Part shown: in pieces, positions 2,330 through 38,090 of the stretch
Position numbering within the stretch: position 1 is the first letter of the stretch
Layout of the letters: each line of letters begins with the position of its first letter
Assembly: GCF_001187535.1 (NCBI RefSeq)
Contig: NZ_LFIO01000958.1
Coordinates: 62,001-126,000, forward strand
DNA: 64,000 bases
Direction of reading: 5' to 3'
Source of the DNA: Rhizobium ecuadorense
Lineage (GTDB): Bacteria > Pseudomonadota > Alphaproteobacteria > Rhizobiales > Rhizobiaceae
Notes under the pieces: generated by a model
Told to the model about the DNA's origin: nothing
The model's input: only the letters and a program-made list of their open reading frames with translations
The model's database searches: none
Made by a program: the position numbers and the translations under genes

Positions 2330-3292
2330 TTATTCCAGCAGGATCAGAATCTTGCTCGACGCCGTATTGAGGATCGAAATCGCTTCGACGGCCATCTGCT
2401 TCTGGGTTTCGATCGCCTTCTGCCGGATCGAAGCCTCGTCCATGTCGGTATCGACGAGCGCACCGACGCTCTTGTCGATCGAATCGGAGAGATCGGCCGT
2501 ATAGTCTATCTGATCGTCGATGCGCGTCTTCATCACGCCGATGGATGCGGCTGTCGTCGTCAGCGTGGCGAGCAGCGAGTCAGTCACGTCAAGCATGTCG
2601 GTAAGTTGCGCATCGGTCGTGGTATTGCTGATCGCAATTTCCGTCCCCGTCGCCGGCGTGGTCGAGTTGGCGTTCAGCAGGTAGTAGTTGCGCGCCGTCG
2701 CGCCGCTGTTGTTGATCGCATTGGCATCGACCGCCTTGGTCAACAGGCCGCCGCTGGCATTGTTCTTGTCGATGAGGATGGTCTGCGACGACGGGAAATC
2801 GATGGTTCGGGCCTGATATTCGCCGGTCGGGGCGCGCACGAAGCTTGAGATGACCGACCATGTCGGGGGCGCTGTGGTGTTGCCGTTCAGCAGCCAGTTC
2901 TCACCGGCAAACGAGGTCGATTCGACGATCGTCTGCAGCTGCTGCTTGTATTCGCCGATCTCGGCGTTGATCTTGTCCTTGTCTGTGCCCGGCTCTCTTG
3001 CCGCGACCAGCTTGGCGCGGATCTGGCCCATCAGATCGATCGCCGAATTCATCGCCGTATAGGTCGCGTCCACCTTGGCAGCCCCGAGACCGAGCGCATC
3101 ACCGATCGTCCCGAGATTGGTGCTGTCCGAGCGCATGACGGTCGCGACCGACCAGTAGGACGCATCGTCGGCGGCCGTCTCGATACGGTATCCCGAGGAC
3201 ACCTGCTGCTGGGTCTGGCTGGCTTCTTTGTTGATGCTGCGCAGCACCGCAAGCGCATTCACCGCGGCCGCGCTGGTAATCTTAACGGTCAT
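2330..3292 (-). CDS. flaD: Flagellin (most divergent copy)
   Basis: This 320-residue flagellin has the conserved N-terminal D0/D1 segment (VSSGYRIETAADDASYWSVA) and C-terminal helix (IRQKAIETQKQMAVEAISIL), with a short variable centre typical of rhizobial complex flagella. It is the last of four tandem flagellin genes and clearly the most diverged: it starts MTVKITSAAAV instead of MTSI, ends ILILLE instead of the LTLFR type, and has a longer centre. It may be a minor filament component. The symbol follows the R. leguminosarum gene order and is tentative; in S. meliloti the names of the last two copies are swapped. Its own upstream region carries one GGTTAACT motif (about 3412). Confidence 0.9.
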   Translation of the reverse strand: MTVKITSAAAVNALAVLRSINKEASQTQQQVSSGYRIETAADDASYWSVATVMRSDSTNLGTIGDALGLGAAKVDATYTAMNSAIDLMGQIRAKLVAAREPGTDKDKINAEIGEYKQQLQTIVESTSFAGENWLLNGNTTAPPTWSVISSFVRAPTGEYQARTIDFPSSQTILIDKNNASGGLLTKAVDANAINNSGATARNYYLLNANSTTPATGTEIAISNTTTDAQLTDMLDVTDSLLATLTTTAASIGVMKTRIDDQIDYTADLSDSIDKSVGALVDTDMDEASIRQKAIETQKQMAVEAISILNTASSKILILLE

Positions 3293-3592: not shown

Positions 3593-4504
3593 TTAGCTGC
3601 GGAACAGCGTGAGGATGTTCTGCGCGCTGGAGTTGGCGATCGACAGCGACTGGATCGCCAGCTGTTGCTGCGTCTGCAACGCCGTCAGCTTACTCGATTC
3701 CTCCTCCATGTCGGCATCGACGAGGCGGCCGACGCCCGAGTCGATCGAGTCGCTGAGCGCTCCGACGAAATTTTCCTGCAGTTCGATGCGCGTGGAAATC
3801 GAGCCGAGCTGCGATGCAGCCTTGGTCATCGCTTCCAGGCCCGCCTCGATCGACGTCAGGGCCATGGAGATCTCAACCGAGCCGAAGGTGCTGATGTCCA
3901 TCGAGTAGATCGAGCCGATCGTGCCGTATGAGGTGCCGATAATGCCGGCGGCCGTGTCGATCGTGCCAGTCGAGGTCATGCCGAAGAGAACGTTGCCCGC
4001 GGAACTCGTGTCCAGGATGTAGTCCGTCGTCTTGACCGAGACATTGCCGTTGCCATCGCGCACGAAGGTGGAAACCACGCTCTTGGTGCCGTCGGCGCCG
4101 GCAACCCAGTTTTCACCGGAGAAGGAGGCCGATTGGGCGATGCTCAGGAGCTGCTGCTGCAGCTGGCCGATTTCTTCCTGGACTTTGGTCTTGTCGACGC
4201 CCTTTTCGGTCGCGGCGACGATCTTCGCCTTGATTTCGCTGATGACGTCGATGGCGCTGTCCATGGCGGAGTAAGCGGTGTCGACCTTGGCGGCGCCGAG
4301 GCCGAGAGCGTCGGAGACAGCGGAGAGCGCCTTGTTGTCCGAACGCATGGTCGTTGCGATCGACCAATAGGCGGCGTTGTCGGACGCTTTTTCGACGCGA
4401 TAACCCGACGATACGCGGTTCTGCGTAGCCTCGAGGCCGTCATTGATTCCGCGGAGTGTCTGAAGAGCGGCCATCGCCGCAACGTTGGTCAAAATGCTGG
4501 TCAT
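3593..4504 (-). CDS. flaC: Flagellin (third copy)
   Basis: A 303-residue flagellin beginning MTSILTNVAAMAALQTLRGI and ending SSAQNILTLFRS. The N-terminal (about 1-140) and C-terminal (about 225-303) helical regions are nearly the same as in the next two copies; the central part is specific to it. It forms the flagellar filament after export through the type III apparatus. It has its own promoter region and its own terminator, so it is probably transcribed alone. The symbol is assigned by position in the tandem array and is tentative. Confidence 0.92.
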   Translation of the reverse strand: MTSILTNVAAMAALQTLRGINDGLEATQNRVSSGYRVEKASDNAAYWSIATTMRSDNKALSAVSDALGLGAAKVDTAYSAMDSAIDVISEIKAKIVAATEKGVDKTKVQEEIGQLQQQLLSIAQSASFSGENWVAGADGTKSVVSTFVRDGNGNVSVKTTDYILDTSSAGNVLFGMTSTGTIDTAAGIIGTSYGTIGSIYSMDISTFGSVEISMALTSIEAGLEAMTKAASQLGSISTRIELQENFVGALSDSIDSGVGRLVDADMEEESSKLTALQTQQQLAIQSLSIANSSAQNILTLFRS

Positions 4505-4751: not shown

Positions 4752-5660
4752 TTAGCCGCGGAACAGCGTGAGGATGGTCTGCGAAGAGGAGTTCGCAATC
4801 GACAGCGACTGGACGGCCAGCTGCTGCTGGGTCTGCAGAGCGCTGAGCTTGGAAGATTCTTCTTCCATGTCGGCGTCGACGAGACGGCCGACACCAGAGT
4901 CGATCGAGTCGCTGAGAGCCGAGACGAAGTTTTCCTGCAGTTCGATGCGCTTGGAGATCGAGCCGAGGGCAGCGCCGGCGCTGGTCATGGACTTCAGAGC
5001 CGCTTCGACGTTGGTCAGAGCCGACTGGATCTGGCCGAGGGTGAAGTTGGTGATGTCCATCGAGTAGACAGAACCGGTCGCACCATTCGACGTGCCGAGG
5101 ATACCCGTGGAGGTTTCGACCGCGCCGCCGCTCATGCCGAACAGAACGTTGCCTGCGGAGCCGTCGTCGAGAACGTAGTCGGTCATCACGACCGATACGG
5201 CGTTGGAGCCGTCACGGACGAAGGAGGCAACGACGTTCTTGGTGCCGTCAGCGCCGGCAACCCAGTTTTCACCGGAGAAGGAAGCCGACTGAGCGACGCT
5301 CAGGAGCTGCTGCTGCAGCTGGCTGATTTCTTCCTGGACCTTGGCCTTGTCGACGCCGTTTTCAGTCGCGGCAACGAGCTTGGCCTTGATGTCGCCGACG
5401 ACATCGATGGCACTGTCCATGGCGGAGTAAGCGGTGTCGACCTTGGCGGCGCCGAGGCCGAGAGCGTCGGAAACGGCGGAAAGTGCCTTGTTGTCCGAGC
5501 GCATGGTCGTTGCGATCGACCAATATGCCGCGTTGTCGGAAGCCTGGCCGACGCGATAGCCTGAGGAAACGTGAGCCTGGGTTGTCTGGAGACCCTGGTT
5601 GATGCCACGGAGAGTCTGGAGGGCTGCCATCGCAGCGTTATTGGTGTTGATGCTCGTCAT
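4752..5660 (-). CDS. flaB: Flagellin (second copy)
   Basis: A 302-residue flagellin, MTSINTNNAAMAALQTLRGI to SSQTILTLFRG. It is very close to the first copy throughout, including the centre (DITNF, ALTNVEAALKSMTSAGAALG), so the pair looks like a recent duplication or a target of gene conversion. It polymerises into the filament together with the major flagellin. The gene is flanked by its own promoter block and hairpin terminator. The symbol is given by order in the array. Confidence 0.93.
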   Translation of the reverse strand: MTSINTNNAAMAALQTLRGINQGLQTTQAHVSSGYRVGQASDNAAYWSIATTMRSDNKALSAVSDALGLGAAKVDTAYSAMDSAIDVVGDIKAKLVAATENGVDKAKVQEEISQLQQQLLSVAQSASFSGENWVAGADGTKNVVASFVRDGSNAVSVVMTDYVLDDGSAGNVLFGMSGGAVETSTGILGTSNGATGSVYSMDITNFTLGQIQSALTNVEAALKSMTSAGAALGSISKRIELQENFVSALSDSIDSGVGRLVDADMEEESSKLSALQTQQQLAVQSLSIANSSSQTILTLFRG

Positions 5661-5941: not shown

Positions 5942-6847
5942 TTAGCGGAAGAGCGACAGGATATTCTGCGAAGAGGAATTCGCGATCGACAGCGACTGGA
6001 TCGCCAGCTGCTGCTGGGTCTGCAGGGCGCTGAGCTTGGAAGATTCTTCTTCCATGTTGGCGTCGACGAGACGGCCGACACCGGAGTCGATCGAGTCGCT
6101 GAGCGCTGACACGAATTCGTCCTGGCTGTCGATACGCTTGGAGAGCGAGCCGAGAGCAGCACCGGCGCTGGTCATGGACTTCAGAGCCGCTTCGACGTTG
6201 GTCAAGGCCGTCTGGATCTGGCCGGCGGTGAAGTTGGTGATGTCCATCGAGTAGACAGAACCGGTCGCACCATTCGAAGTACCGAGGATACCCGTGGAGG
6301 TTTCGACCGAGCCGTTGCTCATGCCGAACAGAACGTTGCCTGCGGAGCCGTCGTCGAGAACGTAGTCGGTCGTGGTGACCGAAACGGCGTTGGAGCCGTC
6401 ACGGACGAAGGACGAAACGACGCTCTTGGTGCCGTCAGCGCCGGCAACCCAGTTTTCACCGTTGAAGGAAGCCGACTGAGCGATGCTCTTCAGTTGCTCC
6501 TGCAGCTGGCTGATTTCTTCCTGGACCTTGGCCTTGTCGACGCCGTTTTCAGTGGCGGCAACCAGCTTGGCCTTGATGTCGCCGACGACGTCGATGGCGC
6601 TGTCCATGGCGGTGTAAGCGGTGTCGACCTTGGCAGCACCCATGCCAAGAGCGTCGGAAACGGCGGAAAGTGCCTTGTTGTCCGAGCGCATGGTCGTTGC
6701 GATCGACCAATATGCCGCGTTGTCAGATGCCTTGCCGACACGATAGCCGGACGAAACGTGAGCCTGGGTTGACTGGAGACCCTGGTTGACGTTGCGCAGC
6801 GTCTGGAGAGCGGCCTGTGCGGAAGTGTTGGTGTTAATGCTTGTCAT
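5942..6847 (-). CDS. flaA: Flagellin (first copy, probably the major one)
   Basis: A 301-residue flagellin starting MTSINTNTSAQAALQTLRNV and ending SSSQNILSLFR. The D0/D1 helices are fully conserved (VSSGYRVGKASDNAAYWSIA near residue 32). The small central domain is shared with the second copy. It is the copy nearest fliP, the position of flaA in S. meliloti, where FlaA is the principal filament subunit. The ribosome site is AGGGGACAG. Its upstream region differs from those of the other copies, suggesting separate control or stronger expression. The symbol is by synteny. Confidence 0.93.
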   Translation of the reverse strand: MTSINTNTSAQAALQTLRNVNQGLQSTQAHVSSGYRVGKASDNAAYWSIATTMRSDNKALSAVSDALGMGAAKVDTAYTAMDSAIDVVGDIKAKLVAATENGVDKAKVQEEISQLQEQLKSIAQSASFNGENWVAGADGTKSVVSSFVRDGSNAVSVTTTDYVLDDGSAGNVLFGMSNGSVETSTGILGTSNGATGSVYSMDITNFTAGQIQTALTNVEAALKSMTSAGAALGSLSKRIDSQDEFVSALSDSIDSGVGRLVDANMEEESSKLSALQTQQQLAIQSLSIANSSSQNILSLFR

Positions 6848-7280
6848 AAATCTGTCCCCTGGAAACTAGATACAAAAAGGAGGACATACCGGACTAAGTA
6901 CCGGCGATGACGGACCAGCTTCATGCTACTCGGCGCCTTTTTTTGTTTGGCCCAAACCCGTCATGTCCAGGGCAATCTCGCAGCCAATGCTTGCCAACTT
7001 CTTAAAAATGGAGGTGCCGTTCCGGCTCCTTACATCGCATAGTTAATGCCGGCTGAATCTATTCCTTCGCATGCTAACATACGGGGAAAGAAACCGTTTT
7101 CTCTCATGAAAGTAAGCGTCTTCATGAGGCGCACCGGTTTCAAGCAAGCTTCACATGACAATGTGGCAGGCGCCGGGATAGCATCATCGGATTCGATCCA
7201 CCCGTTTTCAGGCTGGACGGCTCGTGCGTGTCTCGGCGATCGACAGCCATGCCAGAACATTTCCTTCACGGAGTTGGGTT
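6848..7280. promoter_or_regulatory. Divergent intergenic region between the first flagellin gene and the glycosyltransferase gene
   Basis: 433 nt without a convincing gene. The left part is the leader and promoter of the first flagellin gene. It keeps the GGACATACCGGA leader element of the other flagellin genes but lacks their GGTTAAC blocks; instead it has a T-rich run near 6938-6950. The right part must hold the promoter of the plus-strand glycosyltransferase gene, ending in GGAG at 7270-7273. Confidence 0.45.
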
Positions 7281-9197
7281 TTGAACAGCAAAGTTTCGTT
7301 CTCTGCGGCATCCAGAGATTACCAGGCGGGCCGCTACACACAGTCCTTGGCGACGCTCAACCAGCTCATGGATATCCAGCAGGACGCCAAGACCTACGCG
7401 CTGCTGGCCAAGAACCTCCTGCAGCTCGGCTTCAAGGCCGATGCCGCGAAAGCCTATGGCCTGGCCGGCAACTGCGAAGGGCCGAATGCCTACGAATACC
7501 AGAAACAGGCTGCCAAGCTGCATTATGAGATCGGCAACGAGGATGATGCTCTGCTGATCGCCATGCGAAACCTCGCCAAGGCGCAGGACGACGCGGAACT
7601 CGCCTTCATCATAACCGCGATCTATCTGAAGCGGCAGCAGCGGGATATCATTCGCCCGTTCAAGACGGTGCTGTCACAGAGTGCCAATCCCGATCATATG
7701 CGCCTGGCTGCCCTGCTGCTGAGCGACGATCTGAACGACGCAACCAACCAGAGCCTCTCGCGCAACCTCTTCAAGCGGTTTCCCGGCAATCACGCATTCC
7801 GCTTCCTGCATCTGGTTTTCGCGCGCGAATTCAACGATTTCGAAGAGGCCAGCAAACATCAGGCAGTGATCGACGCGACCCTGGCGAGGGGCGATATCGA
7901 GATCCTGCGCAAGGACAACCCGTTCTATCATCTGCACTGGTGCGGCAACGAGGATTTCAACCGGCATGCGACAATCGGCACCACCCCCCTCAACCCGGAA
8001 CGGGTAGCCGTCCGCCGCAACCAGCCGCACACATGGTCGAACAAGATCCGGATTGGTTACATGTCGTCGGACTTCTGGGATCGCCATGCGACCATGAAGC
8101 TGTTGCAGCGCATCCTGGAACTGCACGACAAGGACCGGTTCGAGGTGACGCTGTTCTGCCATACCGGTCCGGAATACCTGAAGCACAACGTGACCGACCG
8201 CAGCCGCTGGGGCCGGATCGTCGACGTTCACGGCTTCTCCGACCAGGCGGTGCTGGCAGTGGTGCGCGAGCACAATATCGACATCATGGTCGACCTGAAG
8301 GGCCACACCTCCGGCAGCCGCGCGACGGTGTTCAACCAGCCGCTGGCACCGGTCCATGTCGGCTGGCTCGGTTTCCCCGGCAGCACGGTCAATATCGATC
8401 TCGACTATGTTATCGGCGACCATTCGGTATTGCCCGAGGTGGCCAAGCCCTTCTACCATGAGAAATTCTGCCGGCTGCCGGAAAGCTATCAGCCGAACGA
8501 CCCGATGCACCGCCCGAAGCCGCGCCCCGTCACCCGCGAGCAGCTGGGTCTGCCGGAAGAGGCCTTCATCTTCGCCTCGTTCAACGGCAACCGCAAGATC
8601 ACGCCGGAGACCATCGACAGCTGGTGCCGCATTCTCAAGCGGGCGCCGAACAGCGTGCTCTGGCTGATGGCGAACACGCCGCGCAACCAGGCGAACCTGT
8701 TGAAGCAGTTCCAGACGGCGGGCATTTCGCCCAAGCGGATCATTTTCTGCCCGCGCGCGCCCTACGAACAACATATCGACCGTCAGCAGGCTGCCGACCT
8801 CGGCATCGACACCTTCCCGGTCAACGGCCACACGACCACCTCGGAGCAGCTCTGGGGCGGCCTGCCGGTCCTGACCGTCAAGGGCACCAACTTCGCCTCA
8901 CGCGTCAGCGAGAGCCTGCTACGGGCCATCGACCTGCCCGACCTCGTCGCAAGCGACCTGCAGGCCTACGAGGATCTGGCCGTGGAGCTGGCGCAGAATC
9001 CCGGACGGATCGCCGAATACAAGGCGCACTTGAAAGAGAAGCGTTATATCGCGCCGCTCTTCGACGCCGAACGCTTCTGCAATCATCTGGAGCAGGCCTA
9101 CGAAATCATGGCCGAGCGCGCCAAACAGCGTCTCGAACCCGAGCACGTGGACATCGCGGCGCTGCCGCCGCGCACGGCGCCGTTCGCCGCCGAGTGA
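7281..9197 (+). CDS. TPR / SPINDLY-OGT family glycosyltransferase (GT41-like), candidate flagellin glycosyltransferase
   Basis: A 638-residue protein. TTG at 7281 is chosen because GGAG lies 7 nt upstream; the protein then opens MNSKVSFSAASRDYQAGRYT. The first ~230 residues are helical TPR-like repeats. From about residue 250 the sequence matches the catalytic region of O-linked GlcNAc transferase / SPINDLY proteins: RIGYMSSDFWDRHATMKLL, then DLKGHTSGSRATVFNQPLAP with VHVGWLGFPGS, FASFNGNRKITPE, and NGHTTTSEQLWGGLPVLT. These enzymes move a sugar from a nucleotide donor to Ser/Thr of a protein. The gene lies between fliP and four flagellin genes on the opposite strand, so flagellin is the likely acceptor (inference). 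No signal peptide or membrane helix is seen, as expected for a cytoplasmic enzyme acting before export. Confidence 0.85.
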   Translation: MNSKVSFSAASRDYQAGRYTQSLATLNQLMDIQQDAKTYALLAKNLLQLGFKADAAKAYGLAGNCEGPNAYEYQKQAAKLHYEIGNEDDALLIAMRNLAKAQDDAELAFIITAIYLKRQQRDIIRPFKTVLSQSANPDHMRLAALLLSDDLNDATNQSLSRNLFKRFPGNHAFRFLHLVFAREFNDFEEASKHQAVIDATLARGDIEILRKDNPFYHLHWCGNEDFNRHATIGTTPLNPERVAVRRNQPHTWSNKIRIGYMSSDFWDRHATMKLLQRILELHDKDRFEVTLFCHTGPEYLKHNVTDRSRWGRIVDVHGFSDQAVLAVVREHNIDIMVDLKGHTSGSRATVFNQPLAPVHVGWLGFPGSTVNIDLDYVIGDHSVLPEVAKPFYHEKFCRLPESYQPNDPMHRPKPRPVTREQLGLPEEAFIFASFNGNRKITPETIDSWCRILKRAPNSVLWLMANTPRNQANLLKQFQTAGISPKRIIFCPRAPYEQHIDRQQAADLGIDTFPVNGHTTTSEQLWGGLPVLTVKGTNFASRVSESLLRAIDLPDLVASDLQAYEDLAVELAQNPGRIAEYKAHLKEKRYIAPLFDAERFCNHLEQAYEIMAERAKQRLEPEHVDIAALPPRTAPFAAE

Positions 9198-9214
9198 GCT
9201 TTTCAATCGTCAAG

Positions 9215-9246
9215 AAAACCCCGCCGGAGCGATCCGGCGGGGTTTT
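9215..9246. terminator. Bidirectional terminator between the glycosyltransferase gene and fliP
   Basis: A perfect 14-bp inverted repeat, AAAACCCCGCCGGA - GCGA - TCCGGCGGGGTTTT. It lies 18 nt after the plus-strand stop and 43 nt past the end of fliP. The A and T ends let it serve both strands. Confidence 0.92.
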
Positions 9247-9288
9247 CTCGTTGGCGAACACGGAGGCGAAGATAGGAGCGGCGGCCGA

Positions 9289-10026
9289 TCAGTTGAACGA
9301 GCGCACCAGACTGCCGACAAGCAGGTTCCAGCCGTCGATCAGCACGAAGAAGAGGATCTTGAACGGCAGCGAGATCGAGGTCGGCGGCAGCATCATCATG
9401 CCCATCGCCATGGTGATGGTGGCGACGATGAGGTCGATGACGAGGAACGGCAGCACGACGAGGAAGCCGATCTCGAAGCCGCGGCGGATCTCGGAAATCA
9501 TGAAGGCCGGGATCAGCACCCGGTAGTCGATCGGATCGGTCGTCTGGATATTCTGCCCGCGTTCGCGCGCCAGATCGACGAAAAGCGCCAGATCCTTGTC
9601 GCGGGTATTGGCCGCCATGAAGGTGCGGAAAGGTTCGGCGATGCGCTGGACGGCCTCGGTCTCGTTGATCTGATTGGCAAGCAGCGGCTGCACACCGTTC
9701 TGCCAGGCCTGATCGAAGGTCGGCGACATGACGTAGAAGGTCATGAACAGCGACAGCGACAGCAGGATCATGTTGGAGGGCGTCGAGGAGAGGCCCATGC
9801 CCGAACGCAGGATCGAGAAGGCGATGACGAAGCGCGGGAAGCTCGTCACCATGATCAGGATGCCCGGCGCGACCGAAAGAATGGTCAGCAGGCCGAATGT
9901 GCGGATGATCCAGGCAGCGACGGAGCCATCGACCGGCAGGTTCAACAAGTCAGTCGGCAGCTGCTGTGCCACCGCCAGTTCCGGTACCGCCATCATGGCG
10001 GCAAGGAAAACTATAAGACGAATCAT
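9289..10026 (-). CDS. fliP: FliP, flagellar export gate protein
   Basis: A 245-residue inner-membrane component of the flagellar type III export gate. An N-terminal signal-like helix (to about AVAQQ at 22) is followed by a helix pair with TSFPRFVIAFSILRSGMG, a periplasmic segment, then two more helices. Family hallmarks include IPAFMISEIRRGFEIGF and DLIVATITMAMGMMMLPPT. It is the last gene of the flgB-to-fliP operon, and its start overlaps the fliL stop by 4 nt. FliQ, FliR and FlhA are not in the window. Confidence 0.97.
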   Translation of the reverse strand: MIRLIVFLAAMMAVPELAVAQQLPTDLLNLPVDGSVAAWIIRTFGLLTILSVAPGILIMVTSFPRFVIAFSILRSGMGLSSTPSNMILLSLSLFMTFYVMSPTFDQAWQNGVQPLLANQINETEAVQRIAEPFRTFMAANTRDKDLALFVDLARERGQNIQTTDPIDYRVLIPAFMISEIRRGFEIGFLVVLPFLVIDLIVATITMAMGMMMLPPTSISLPFKILFFVLIDGWNLLVGSLVRSFN

Positions 10027-36668: not shown

Positions 36669-38090
36669 ATGTCCCCCAGATCCGGTCTCCTCATTGTTCT
36701 CGGCTTCACGCTCTGGCGCGTCGTCACGCTGCTTTTCGATCGGACGGACCTGTTCGTCGATGAGGCGCAGTACTGGTTCTGGGCGCAGAATCTCGATCTC
36801 GGCTATTATTCCAAGCCGCCGATGATCGCCTGGGTGATCCGTGGCGTGACCGAGCTTTCCGGCTCCAACGCCATCTACTGGATCAGGCTCTCCGGACCGC
36901 TGATCCACATGGCGGCGGCACTGGTTTTGATGAAGGTCGCAAAGCGTTTCGTCGGCCCGGCGATCGAAGGCTGGACGGGCGCGACCTATATCACCCTCCC
37001 GGGTGTGGCGCTTTCCTCGGTGTTTTTCTCGACCGACGTGATCCTGCTGTTTTTCATCGCGATCACCTTGCTTGCCTATTTCGGCCTGACACAGCGGCGC
37101 TCGGTCGGGCTGGCGCTGGTCATGGGCCTCGGCGTCGGCCTCGCCTTCCTGACGAAATATGCCGTGCTGTTCGTGGTTCCGGGCGGTGCACTTGCCCTCC
37201 TCCTCATTCCGGCGGCGCGCATCGCCATCCGGGATTTCATCATCGCAGTCGCGGTTGCGGCGGTCGTCGCCCTGCCGAACCTCTGGTGGAACCTGCAGCA
37301 CAACAATACGACGGTGCGGCATACGCAGGACATCGCCCATTGGAGCGACCTCGGCATCAATCTCCGTCGCGGCCTTGAATTCTTCTCCGCGCAATTCGGC
37401 GTCGTCGGACCGATCATCTTCTTTGCAATGCTCTGGGCAGTCTATCGCATGATCAAGGGCAGGAGCGACGATCGGGAAAAGATGCTGGTCTGGCTGTCGA
37501 TGCCGGTGGTCGTGCTGATCACGCTGCAGGCAACGGTCGCCAAGGCCTATGCCAACTGGGCCGTGACCGCCTATGTCGCCGGCACCATCCTTGCCGTCTG
37601 GCTGCTTTATCGGATGTGGCCGAAGGGCCTGAGACTGTCGCTCACCATCAACGGCATCGCCAGCCTGCTCTTTCCGCTGGCGACGATCTTTCCGCAGCAA
37701 TTGCTGCTGCCGAACGGGGACACGTTGATGAAACGCTATCTCGGCCGCGCCGAGGTCAGCCGCGAGGCCGCCGCACTCGCCGCTCAGGCCGGCACCGACA
37801 TCATCGTCACCAACAATCGCGACATGGTCGCCGATCTTTTCTATACGCTGCGCGATGCATCCTACAGGATCTATGCGCGGGCGCCCGCCGGCCTTCCCGA
37901 GAGCTATTACGAACAGGAATTCGCTCTACCCGCCGACATCACCGGCAAGGTGCTTTTCCTGACGGACGGGTCCCTCACCTGCGCCGCCGAGACGCCCGAA
38001 ATGCTGAAGACCTGGCAGCCGACGGAAGGCTATTACCGGGGCAAGTCGCTCTCCGTCTACAGGGTCTCCGCCGCCTGCCTGGCGCCCTGA
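36669..38090 (+). CDS. GT39-family (ArnT/PMT-like) membrane glycosyltransferase
   Basis: 473 residues with about ten membrane helices. The N-terminal loop carries DRTDLFVDEAQYWFWAQNLD followed by YYSKPPMIAW, the Asp-Glu and Lys-Pro-Pro pattern of GT39/ArnT enzymes. These use polyprenyl-phosphate sugars to modify lipid A, proteins or polysaccharide on the periplasmic side. The last ~130 residues form a soluble domain with TDIIVTNNRDMVADLFYTLR. The acceptor cannot be told from sequence. It is not clearly in an operon. Confidence 0.85.
   Translation: MSPRSGLLIVLGFTLWRVVTLLFDRTDLFVDEAQYWFWAQNLDLGYYSKPPMIAWVIRGVTELSGSNAIYWIRLSGPLIHMAAALVLMKVAKRFVGPAIEGWTGATYITLPGVALSSVFFSTDVILLFFIAITLLAYFGLTQRRSVGLALVMGLGVGLAFLTKYAVLFVVPGGALALLLIPAARIAIRDFIIAVAVAAVVALPNLWWNLQHNNTTVRHTQDIAHWSDLGINLRRGLEFFSAQFGVVGPIIFFAMLWAVYRMIKGRSDDREKMLVWLSMPVVVLITLQATVAKAYANWAVTAYVAGTILAVWLLYRMWPKGLRLSLTINGIASLLFPLATIFPQQLLLPNGDTLMKRYLGRAEVSREAAALAAQAGTDIIVTNNRDMVADLFYTLRDASYRIYARAPAGLPESYYEQEFALPADITGKVLFLTDGSLTCAAETPEMLKTWQPTEGYYRGKSLSVYRVSAACLAP

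Follow-up and report, generated by a model that had tools for sequence, protein, structure and literature searches.

The gene at positions 7281–9197 of a 64,000-nucleotide stretch of Rhizobium ecuadorense DNA (the window, that is, the whole stretch analyzed) probably codes for a GT41-family protein O-glycosyltransferase that modifies the adjoining flagellins in the cytoplasm. In the mechanism that we propose, the N-terminal TPR-like domain (residues ~7–202) would bind newly made flagellin, and the GT-B domain would move the sugar from a common nucleotide sugar onto Ser/Thr residues in the exposed central part of flagellin. UDP-GlcNAc would be the most likely donor by family precedent, with GDP-fucose or a UDP-hexose possible; glycosylation would occur in the cytoplasm and be followed by export via the flagellar type III system. 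Flagellin as the substrate, the O-linkage, the donor, the timing, the activity and the sites are what we infer. The reading is supported by the GT41 domain and fold, the invariant catalytic residues, the linkage to flagellin genes, the single clade formed by the linked genes and the presence of the gene genus-wide. The locus comprises the following features (window positions):

2330–3292, minus strand: flagellin 4, more divergent and FlaD-like, possible substrate (PF00669/PF00700)
3593–4504, minus strand: flagellin 3, proposed substrate (PF00669/PF00700)
4752–5660, minus strand: flagellin 2, proposed substrate (PF00669/PF00700)
5942–6847, minus strand: flagellin 1, FlaA-like, divergent neighbor, proposed substrate (PF00669/PF00700)
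6952–6967, no strand assigned: conserved block in the intergenic region shared with the GT41 gene, towards the flagellin side (from 21 aligned intergenic stretches)
7138–7152, plus strand: conserved block TTTCAAGCAAGCTTC, candidate promoter/operator element ~130 bp 5′ of the GT41 gene
7270–7273, plus strand: GGAG, Shine–Dalgarno-like, 7 nt 5′ of the TTG start, read from the sequence
7281–9197, plus strand: GT41 glycosyltransferase gene, 638 aa, TTG start (PF13844, 4.8e-71)
9209–9255, plus strand: strong hairpin (−34.3 kcal/mol), likely terminator, between the convergent GT41 and fliP ends
9289–10026, minus strand: fliP, convergent neighbor, context only and outside the proposed function (PF00813, 4.1e-75; TIGR01103 over cut-off)

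As the original prediction stated, the GT41 gene is flanked by fliP on one side and four flagellin genes on the other, all of them on the opposite strand, and each of the four flagellins contains both Flagellin_N and Flagellin_C. The gene is part of a large motility cluster; the genome as a whole encodes a single GT41 protein and has seven Flagellin_N matches. The open frame reaches back to GTG 7224, and the TTG at 7281 chosen in the original prediction is the better start, with GGAG ahead of it. The homologous start codon is TTG in 55 and GTG in 25 of 80 related loci, and ATG in none, and GGAG, GAGG or AGGA stands within 16 nt 5′ of the start in all 80. The start is inferred from conservation and is unproven, since 30 of the 80 have an in-frame ATG farther 5′ within the open frame. 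The non-ATG starts of the window gene and its 80 relatives might perhaps hold the level of the enzyme low. The gene is under purifying selection, as indicated by dN/dS values of 0.08–0.14 against seven relatives and 0.25 against an eighth (codons were matched by position without alignment, so that the values for the distant pairs, with L099 and L113, which differ by one codon in length, are rough).

Conserved blocks in the region shared with flagellin 1 were drawn from an alignment of 20 chosen loci and the window (11 displayed; L118 includes a run of N). The core of the 7138–7152 block is present in 80 of 80 loci, the match in L121 being unlike the others. Weaker matches precede fliN (window 20425), flgF (18452) and flhA (L071:9241); scores similar to these also arise in shuffled sequence, where 1 of 20 shuffled windows outscored the weaker matches, and we rejected the block as a shared flagellar regulatory motif. 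The 6952–6967 block has one match only within the window. At the other end of the gene, the hairpin has a z-score of −6.7, and none of 200 shuffles was equally stable; a simple scan for terminators found no excess of terminator-like sites over chance and did not list this hairpin as one stem.

Several lines of evidence place the product in the OGT/SPINDLY type of GT41. PF13844 is the only Pfam model found in it (240 bits, cut-off 25), and the GT41 catalytic motifs quoted in the original prediction are there in the 638-residue protein. Its catalytic residues align with the active site of human OGT: H269, K439, H517, T518 and T519, which we take to correspond to the first His, the UDP-phosphate Lys and the His-Thr-Thr of OGT catalysis, are unchanged in 42 of 42 aligned sequences. 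An AlphaFold2 model (42 sequences; mean pLDDT 85.1, pTM 0.80) predicts TPR-like helical pairs at residues ~7–202 and a GT-B domain at residues ~250–615. Comparison of this predicted model with known structures by Foldseek and VIA-align 2 puts Xanthomonas XcOGT on top (Z 37.4), with human OGT and Arabidopsis SPINDLY (SPY) at Z ~33 and HMW1C/NGT at Z 25. The family model over its cut-off, together with the predicted GT-B fold and the OGT catalytic residues, assigns the protein to GT41, and the predicted helical pairs 7–202, as an N-terminal TPR superhelix, to the OGT/SPY type. No TPR model of Pfam matched at 0.001, so that the repeats are degenerate; the N-terminal part is also less conserved, with a mean identity to the window protein of 45% vs 62% for the catalytic part (11 sequences). 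Human OGT, XcOGT and SPY have the fold and the catalytic residues in common with the window protein and differ from it in their substrates, and the label ‘SPINDLY-type’ should not be read as implying fucose as the donor.

Within the genus, the gene and its position are almost constant. At a threshold of 1e-100, 128 of the 130 genomes sampled gave one match each; six of these matches hold one TGA in the matched stretch, probably near an end, since the open frames there are 642–645 aa. The original prediction named close homologues lying mostly away from flagellar genes as an observation that would tell against it. Of the 309 named loci, the best 80, all of which bear the label Rhizobium or ‘Rhizobiales bacterium’, were examined: flagellin is the next upstream gene of the flagellar query set in all 80, divergently oriented and separated by a gap of 272–442 bp, and the prediction thus stands on this point. 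fliP is next downstream in 78 of these 80 (it is absent in L124, and L137 ends there), at a distance of 82–1243 bp; the gap is ~1.2 kb in six loci and is occupied by two ORFs in L073, the one inspected. The two genus genomes in which no GT41 gene was found, G471 and G502, still have flagellins; their fliP-proximal flagellins are 398–434 aa long (mechanical ORFs), and fliP adjoins flagellin. G471 also carries a three-ORF insert amid its flagellin genes (L207:12441-16782), of which one ORF is a pyridoxal-dependent decarboxylase and two have no Pfam match. The claim that the fliP–flagellin junction is otherwise conserved in relatives was checked in 20 regions, hand-picked mostly from listed flagellin hits and hence non-random, and it holds: in 14 of the 16 that contain both genes and no GT41 gene of the window type, fliP and flagellin are direct neighbors, other mechanical ORFs separating them in L191 and L200. 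The GT41 gene has therefore either entered this conserved junction or disappeared from it, and it travels with the flagellins.

Across the family, the adjacency holds in part. Of 151 genomes sampled, 37 give a match at 1e-20; in 24 of them the best match is almost of full length, starting by query residue 32 (in G107 the best match is partial and the near-full-length matches are weaker). Twelve of the 24 have the gene beside flagellins and 12 do not, within the stretches examined. The flagellin neighbor is kept in all nine linked loci outside the genus, which span six genera, and the fliP neighbor is lost in three of the nine (L036, L037 and L038), which indicates that the gene's association is with the flagellins, not with fliP. 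Among the matches listed for 289 genomes of the class (own genome included; at most four candidates scored per genome), no full-length ortholog outside the family was seen at 1e-60; all listed matches other than that of the window itself start at query residue 85 or later. GT41 paralogues adjoin one another within single genomes at L059, L060, L064 and L066, with up to eight matches in G107.

In a midpoint-rooted tree of 55 rows, the linked genes form a single group (support 100/100) of 22 rows, 21 of which are linked. The sole unlinked row inside this clade, G011, is 56% identical and has leuD- and dnaE-like ORFs in its vicinity (read by eye). The GT41s closest to the clade are located apart from flagellar genes, and several adjoin or lie near a znuA-like gene (by eye); GT41 homologues beside or near such a zinc-transporter gene were noted, by eye from ORF starts, at L044, L046, L048, L050 and L051. 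The flagellin array of G001 contains a distant GT41 gene of unusual letter make-up. In G110, a member of that genus, the end of a further GT41 match is separated by 582 bp from a Flagellin_N match (this stretch, L185, has ambiguous bases, and neither GT41 nor flagellin is annotated there). On the midpoint-rooted tree, the GT41–flagellin linkage therefore arose at least twice in the family.

Flagella of Rhizobium have been studied by Tambalo et al. (2010; PMC2936354). Pro-Q Emerald stains the flagellins of R. leguminosarum 3841 and VF39SM, the 3841 bands run above the sizes predicted for FlaA and FlaB, and the abstract grades these flagellins ‘possibly glycosylated’ (PMC2936354). This agrees with the original prediction, which has flagellin modification as reported for R. 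leguminosarum and the enzyme as perhaps unassigned: the passages available of that paper name none, and ‘glycosyltransferase’ occurs 0 times in its main text (PMC2936354). Strain 3841 carries the GT41 gene beside its flagellins (L087, 93% identical), so that its Pro-Q Emerald-positive flagellins (PMC2936354) support flagellin O-glycosylation. Since flaA of 3841 is RL0718 (PMC2936354), the GT41 gene there would be RL0717. No assignment of the gene to a function was found in the titles, abstract beginnings and passages of the open-licence literature, and a 2021 paper, in the part available, describes flagellar glycosylation in Agrobacterium as unexplored and cites its authors' own unpublished sign of it (PMC8310070). 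Staining suggests a sugar on Rhizobium flagella, and the GT41 gene is the best candidate to encode the enzyme responsible.

Two described systems come close. In Caulobacter crescentus, FlmG, with an N-terminal TPR and a C-terminal GT-B-like domain as in the predicted model of the window protein, is reported to glycosylate flagellin and acts on several flagellins (PMC7591256), as is proposed for the window enzyme; FlmG requires pseudaminic acid (PMC7591256), whereas the window's genome has no NeuB match. The likeness is one of domain layout, and by this analogy FlmG would be the functional parallel. The nearest prediction of the same kind, in the parts of the source available, concerns the enterobacterial flagellin glycosylation islands, where GT41/COG3914 enzymes encoded in flagellar loci are predicted to glycosylate flagellin; these have sugar-modification genes alongside and mostly a methyltransferase domain (PMC4875605), whereas Pfam finds PF13844 only in the window protein. 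No sugar-synthesis or sugar-modification gene stands immediately beside the GT41 gene, its direct neighbors being flagellin and fliP, and none of the 26 window proteins given to Pfam is a nucleotide-sugar synthesis protein. Some 27 kb off, past the chemotaxis genes, the window holds a gene for a PMT_2-type (dolichyl-phosphate-mannose-protein mannosyltransferase-like) membrane protein (36669–38090, plus strand), possibly a second protein or lipid glycosyltransferase.

NeuB is required for nonulosonic acids. It has no match in the window's own genome (G000) and is absent from 11 of the 12 linked genomes, the exception being G128; therefore, the sugar on flagellin is, by these gene contents, probably not a nonulosonic acid, unlike in the FlmG system, and the donor is probably a common nucleotide sugar. 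This lack of NeuB and the distant GT41 in the flagellin array of G001 lend further support to flagellin O-glycosylation. Mutual exclusion of the GT41 gene and NeuB was considered and found too weak (NeuB in 1 of 12 linked and 31 of 139 other genomes): we claim that the GT41 system has no need for the nonulosonic acid pathway, and we do not assert exclusion. In two genomes that have no window-type GT41, G024 (L183) and G125 (L184), a NeuB cluster stands directly beside the flagellins; in G024, Pfam identifies within it a DegT-type aminotransferase and a Polysacc_synt_2 protein, along with a TPR protein of 545 aa. The cluster resembles an alternative of the FlmG/pseudaminic-acid type that occupies this locus; the TPR protein of G024, presumed to be FlmG-like and used as a proxy, shows no similarity to the window protein.

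Listeria GmaR is an O-GlcNAc transferase that also regulates motility; the function proposed here, flagellin O-glycosylation, is common to it and to Maf, and both belong to enzyme families other than GT41. Taken as a precedent, GmaR favors the idea that the window enzyme modifies another flagellar or regulatory protein (hook protein, chaperone or regulator) and that the adjacency to flagellin reflects shared regulation, as do the large motility cluster around the gene and the related clades away from flagellar genes, which may have different substrates. We consider this unlikely, given that the flagellin gene itself is the fixed neighbor, even where other flagellar order has changed. A polysaccharide or other transferase placed in the motility cluster by accident would fit the G011 ortholog, located elsewhere, and the scatter of other GT41 types in the family; it is very unlikely in view of the linkage in 80 of 80 (best of 309) and nine of nine loci, the single clade, the purifying selection and the predicted protein-glycosyltransferase fold. 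Hardly any credence is left for N-glycosylation of flagellin at Asn-X-Ser/Thr sequons in the HMW1C/NGT manner: NGT enzymes also belong to GT41 and give weak matches (9.8e-7 in NCBIfam, ~2e-6 in the PDB search), and Tambalo et al. list flagellin sequons (PMC2936354), but a sequence search of the PDB gave 218, 201 and 149 bits for human OGT, XcOGT and SPY vs ~30 for NGT, the structural Z-scores run in parallel (~33, 37 and 33 vs 25), and the NGT/HMW1C (N-linked) model of NCBIfam scored 27.7 bits against a cut-off of 1000.

As for flagellin O-glycosylation itself, a reading from sequence and a predicted model, its main difficulty is that 12 near-full-length carriers are unlinked, among them G011, whose ortholog belongs to the otherwise linked clade. 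It is also weakened by G471 and G502, which keep flagellins without the gene, and by Tambalo et al. having proposed N-X-S/T sequons, with no glycopeptide found in their study as available (PMC2936354). Two further candidate lines of support were dropped. The mean Ser/Thr content of the flagellin center is 0.273 in 19 loci with the gene and 0.255 in 10 without (p 0.04, ignoring kinship), a small and confounded difference. Positions 142 and 204 of flagellin 1 (301 aa) were tried as acceptor sites in flagellins beginning MTSI: Ser/Thr occurs at 142 in 94% of 51 carrier vs 54% of 26 non-carrier flagellins and at 204 in 86% vs 27%, respectively; comparable differences occur in the C-terminal part, at 250, 255 and 273, and suggest that the pattern reflects kinship rather than function, and both sites were rejected.

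With a candidate beside flaA across nearly the whole genus sample, the glycosylation question becomes testable by a single deletion. The kind of system is known, namely flagellin glycosyltransferases in the GT41/FlmG style, and the interest lies in an assignable gap and a one-gene layout. If the proposal is true, these bacteria, whose flagella come into contact with plants and with flagellum-specific phages, would have a minimal flagellin glycosylation system, which would also serve as a bacterial model of substrate choice by OGT/SPINDLY-type enzymes.

A second GT41 type occurs in other Rhizobiaceae, outside the window. In 15 of 20 short-match GT41 loci (L068, L069, L124, L194 and L209–L219), it lies within ~2.1 kb of long frames with ALTTAQ repeats, which reach ~2,450 codons. 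Six of the 15 had come to light before the test was designed, and nine of 12 loci examined afterwards had the repeats. L058 and L221 denote a single place, and L037 covers the region of L068. The ALTTAQ repeat filter matched no other locus examined, and the term ALTTAQ gave no match in the open-licence literature. This second type is 33–37% identical over the catalytic part, and identity fails to separate the types, since the five short-match loci without repeats (L054, L056, L220, L221 and L222) are 36–40% identical. The second GT41 type and the ALTTAQ-repeat protein are possibly a transferase–substrate pair. More broadly, Rhizobiaceae GT41s may, at close to even odds, have radiated into clades each beside a dedicated exported Ser/Thr-rich substrate: flagellins (a one-gene system using a common nucleotide sugar and no nonulosonic acid), giant ALTTAQ-repeat proteins and, for further clades, other substrates. 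PF20080 was confirmed in all four of the repeat proteins run through Pfam.
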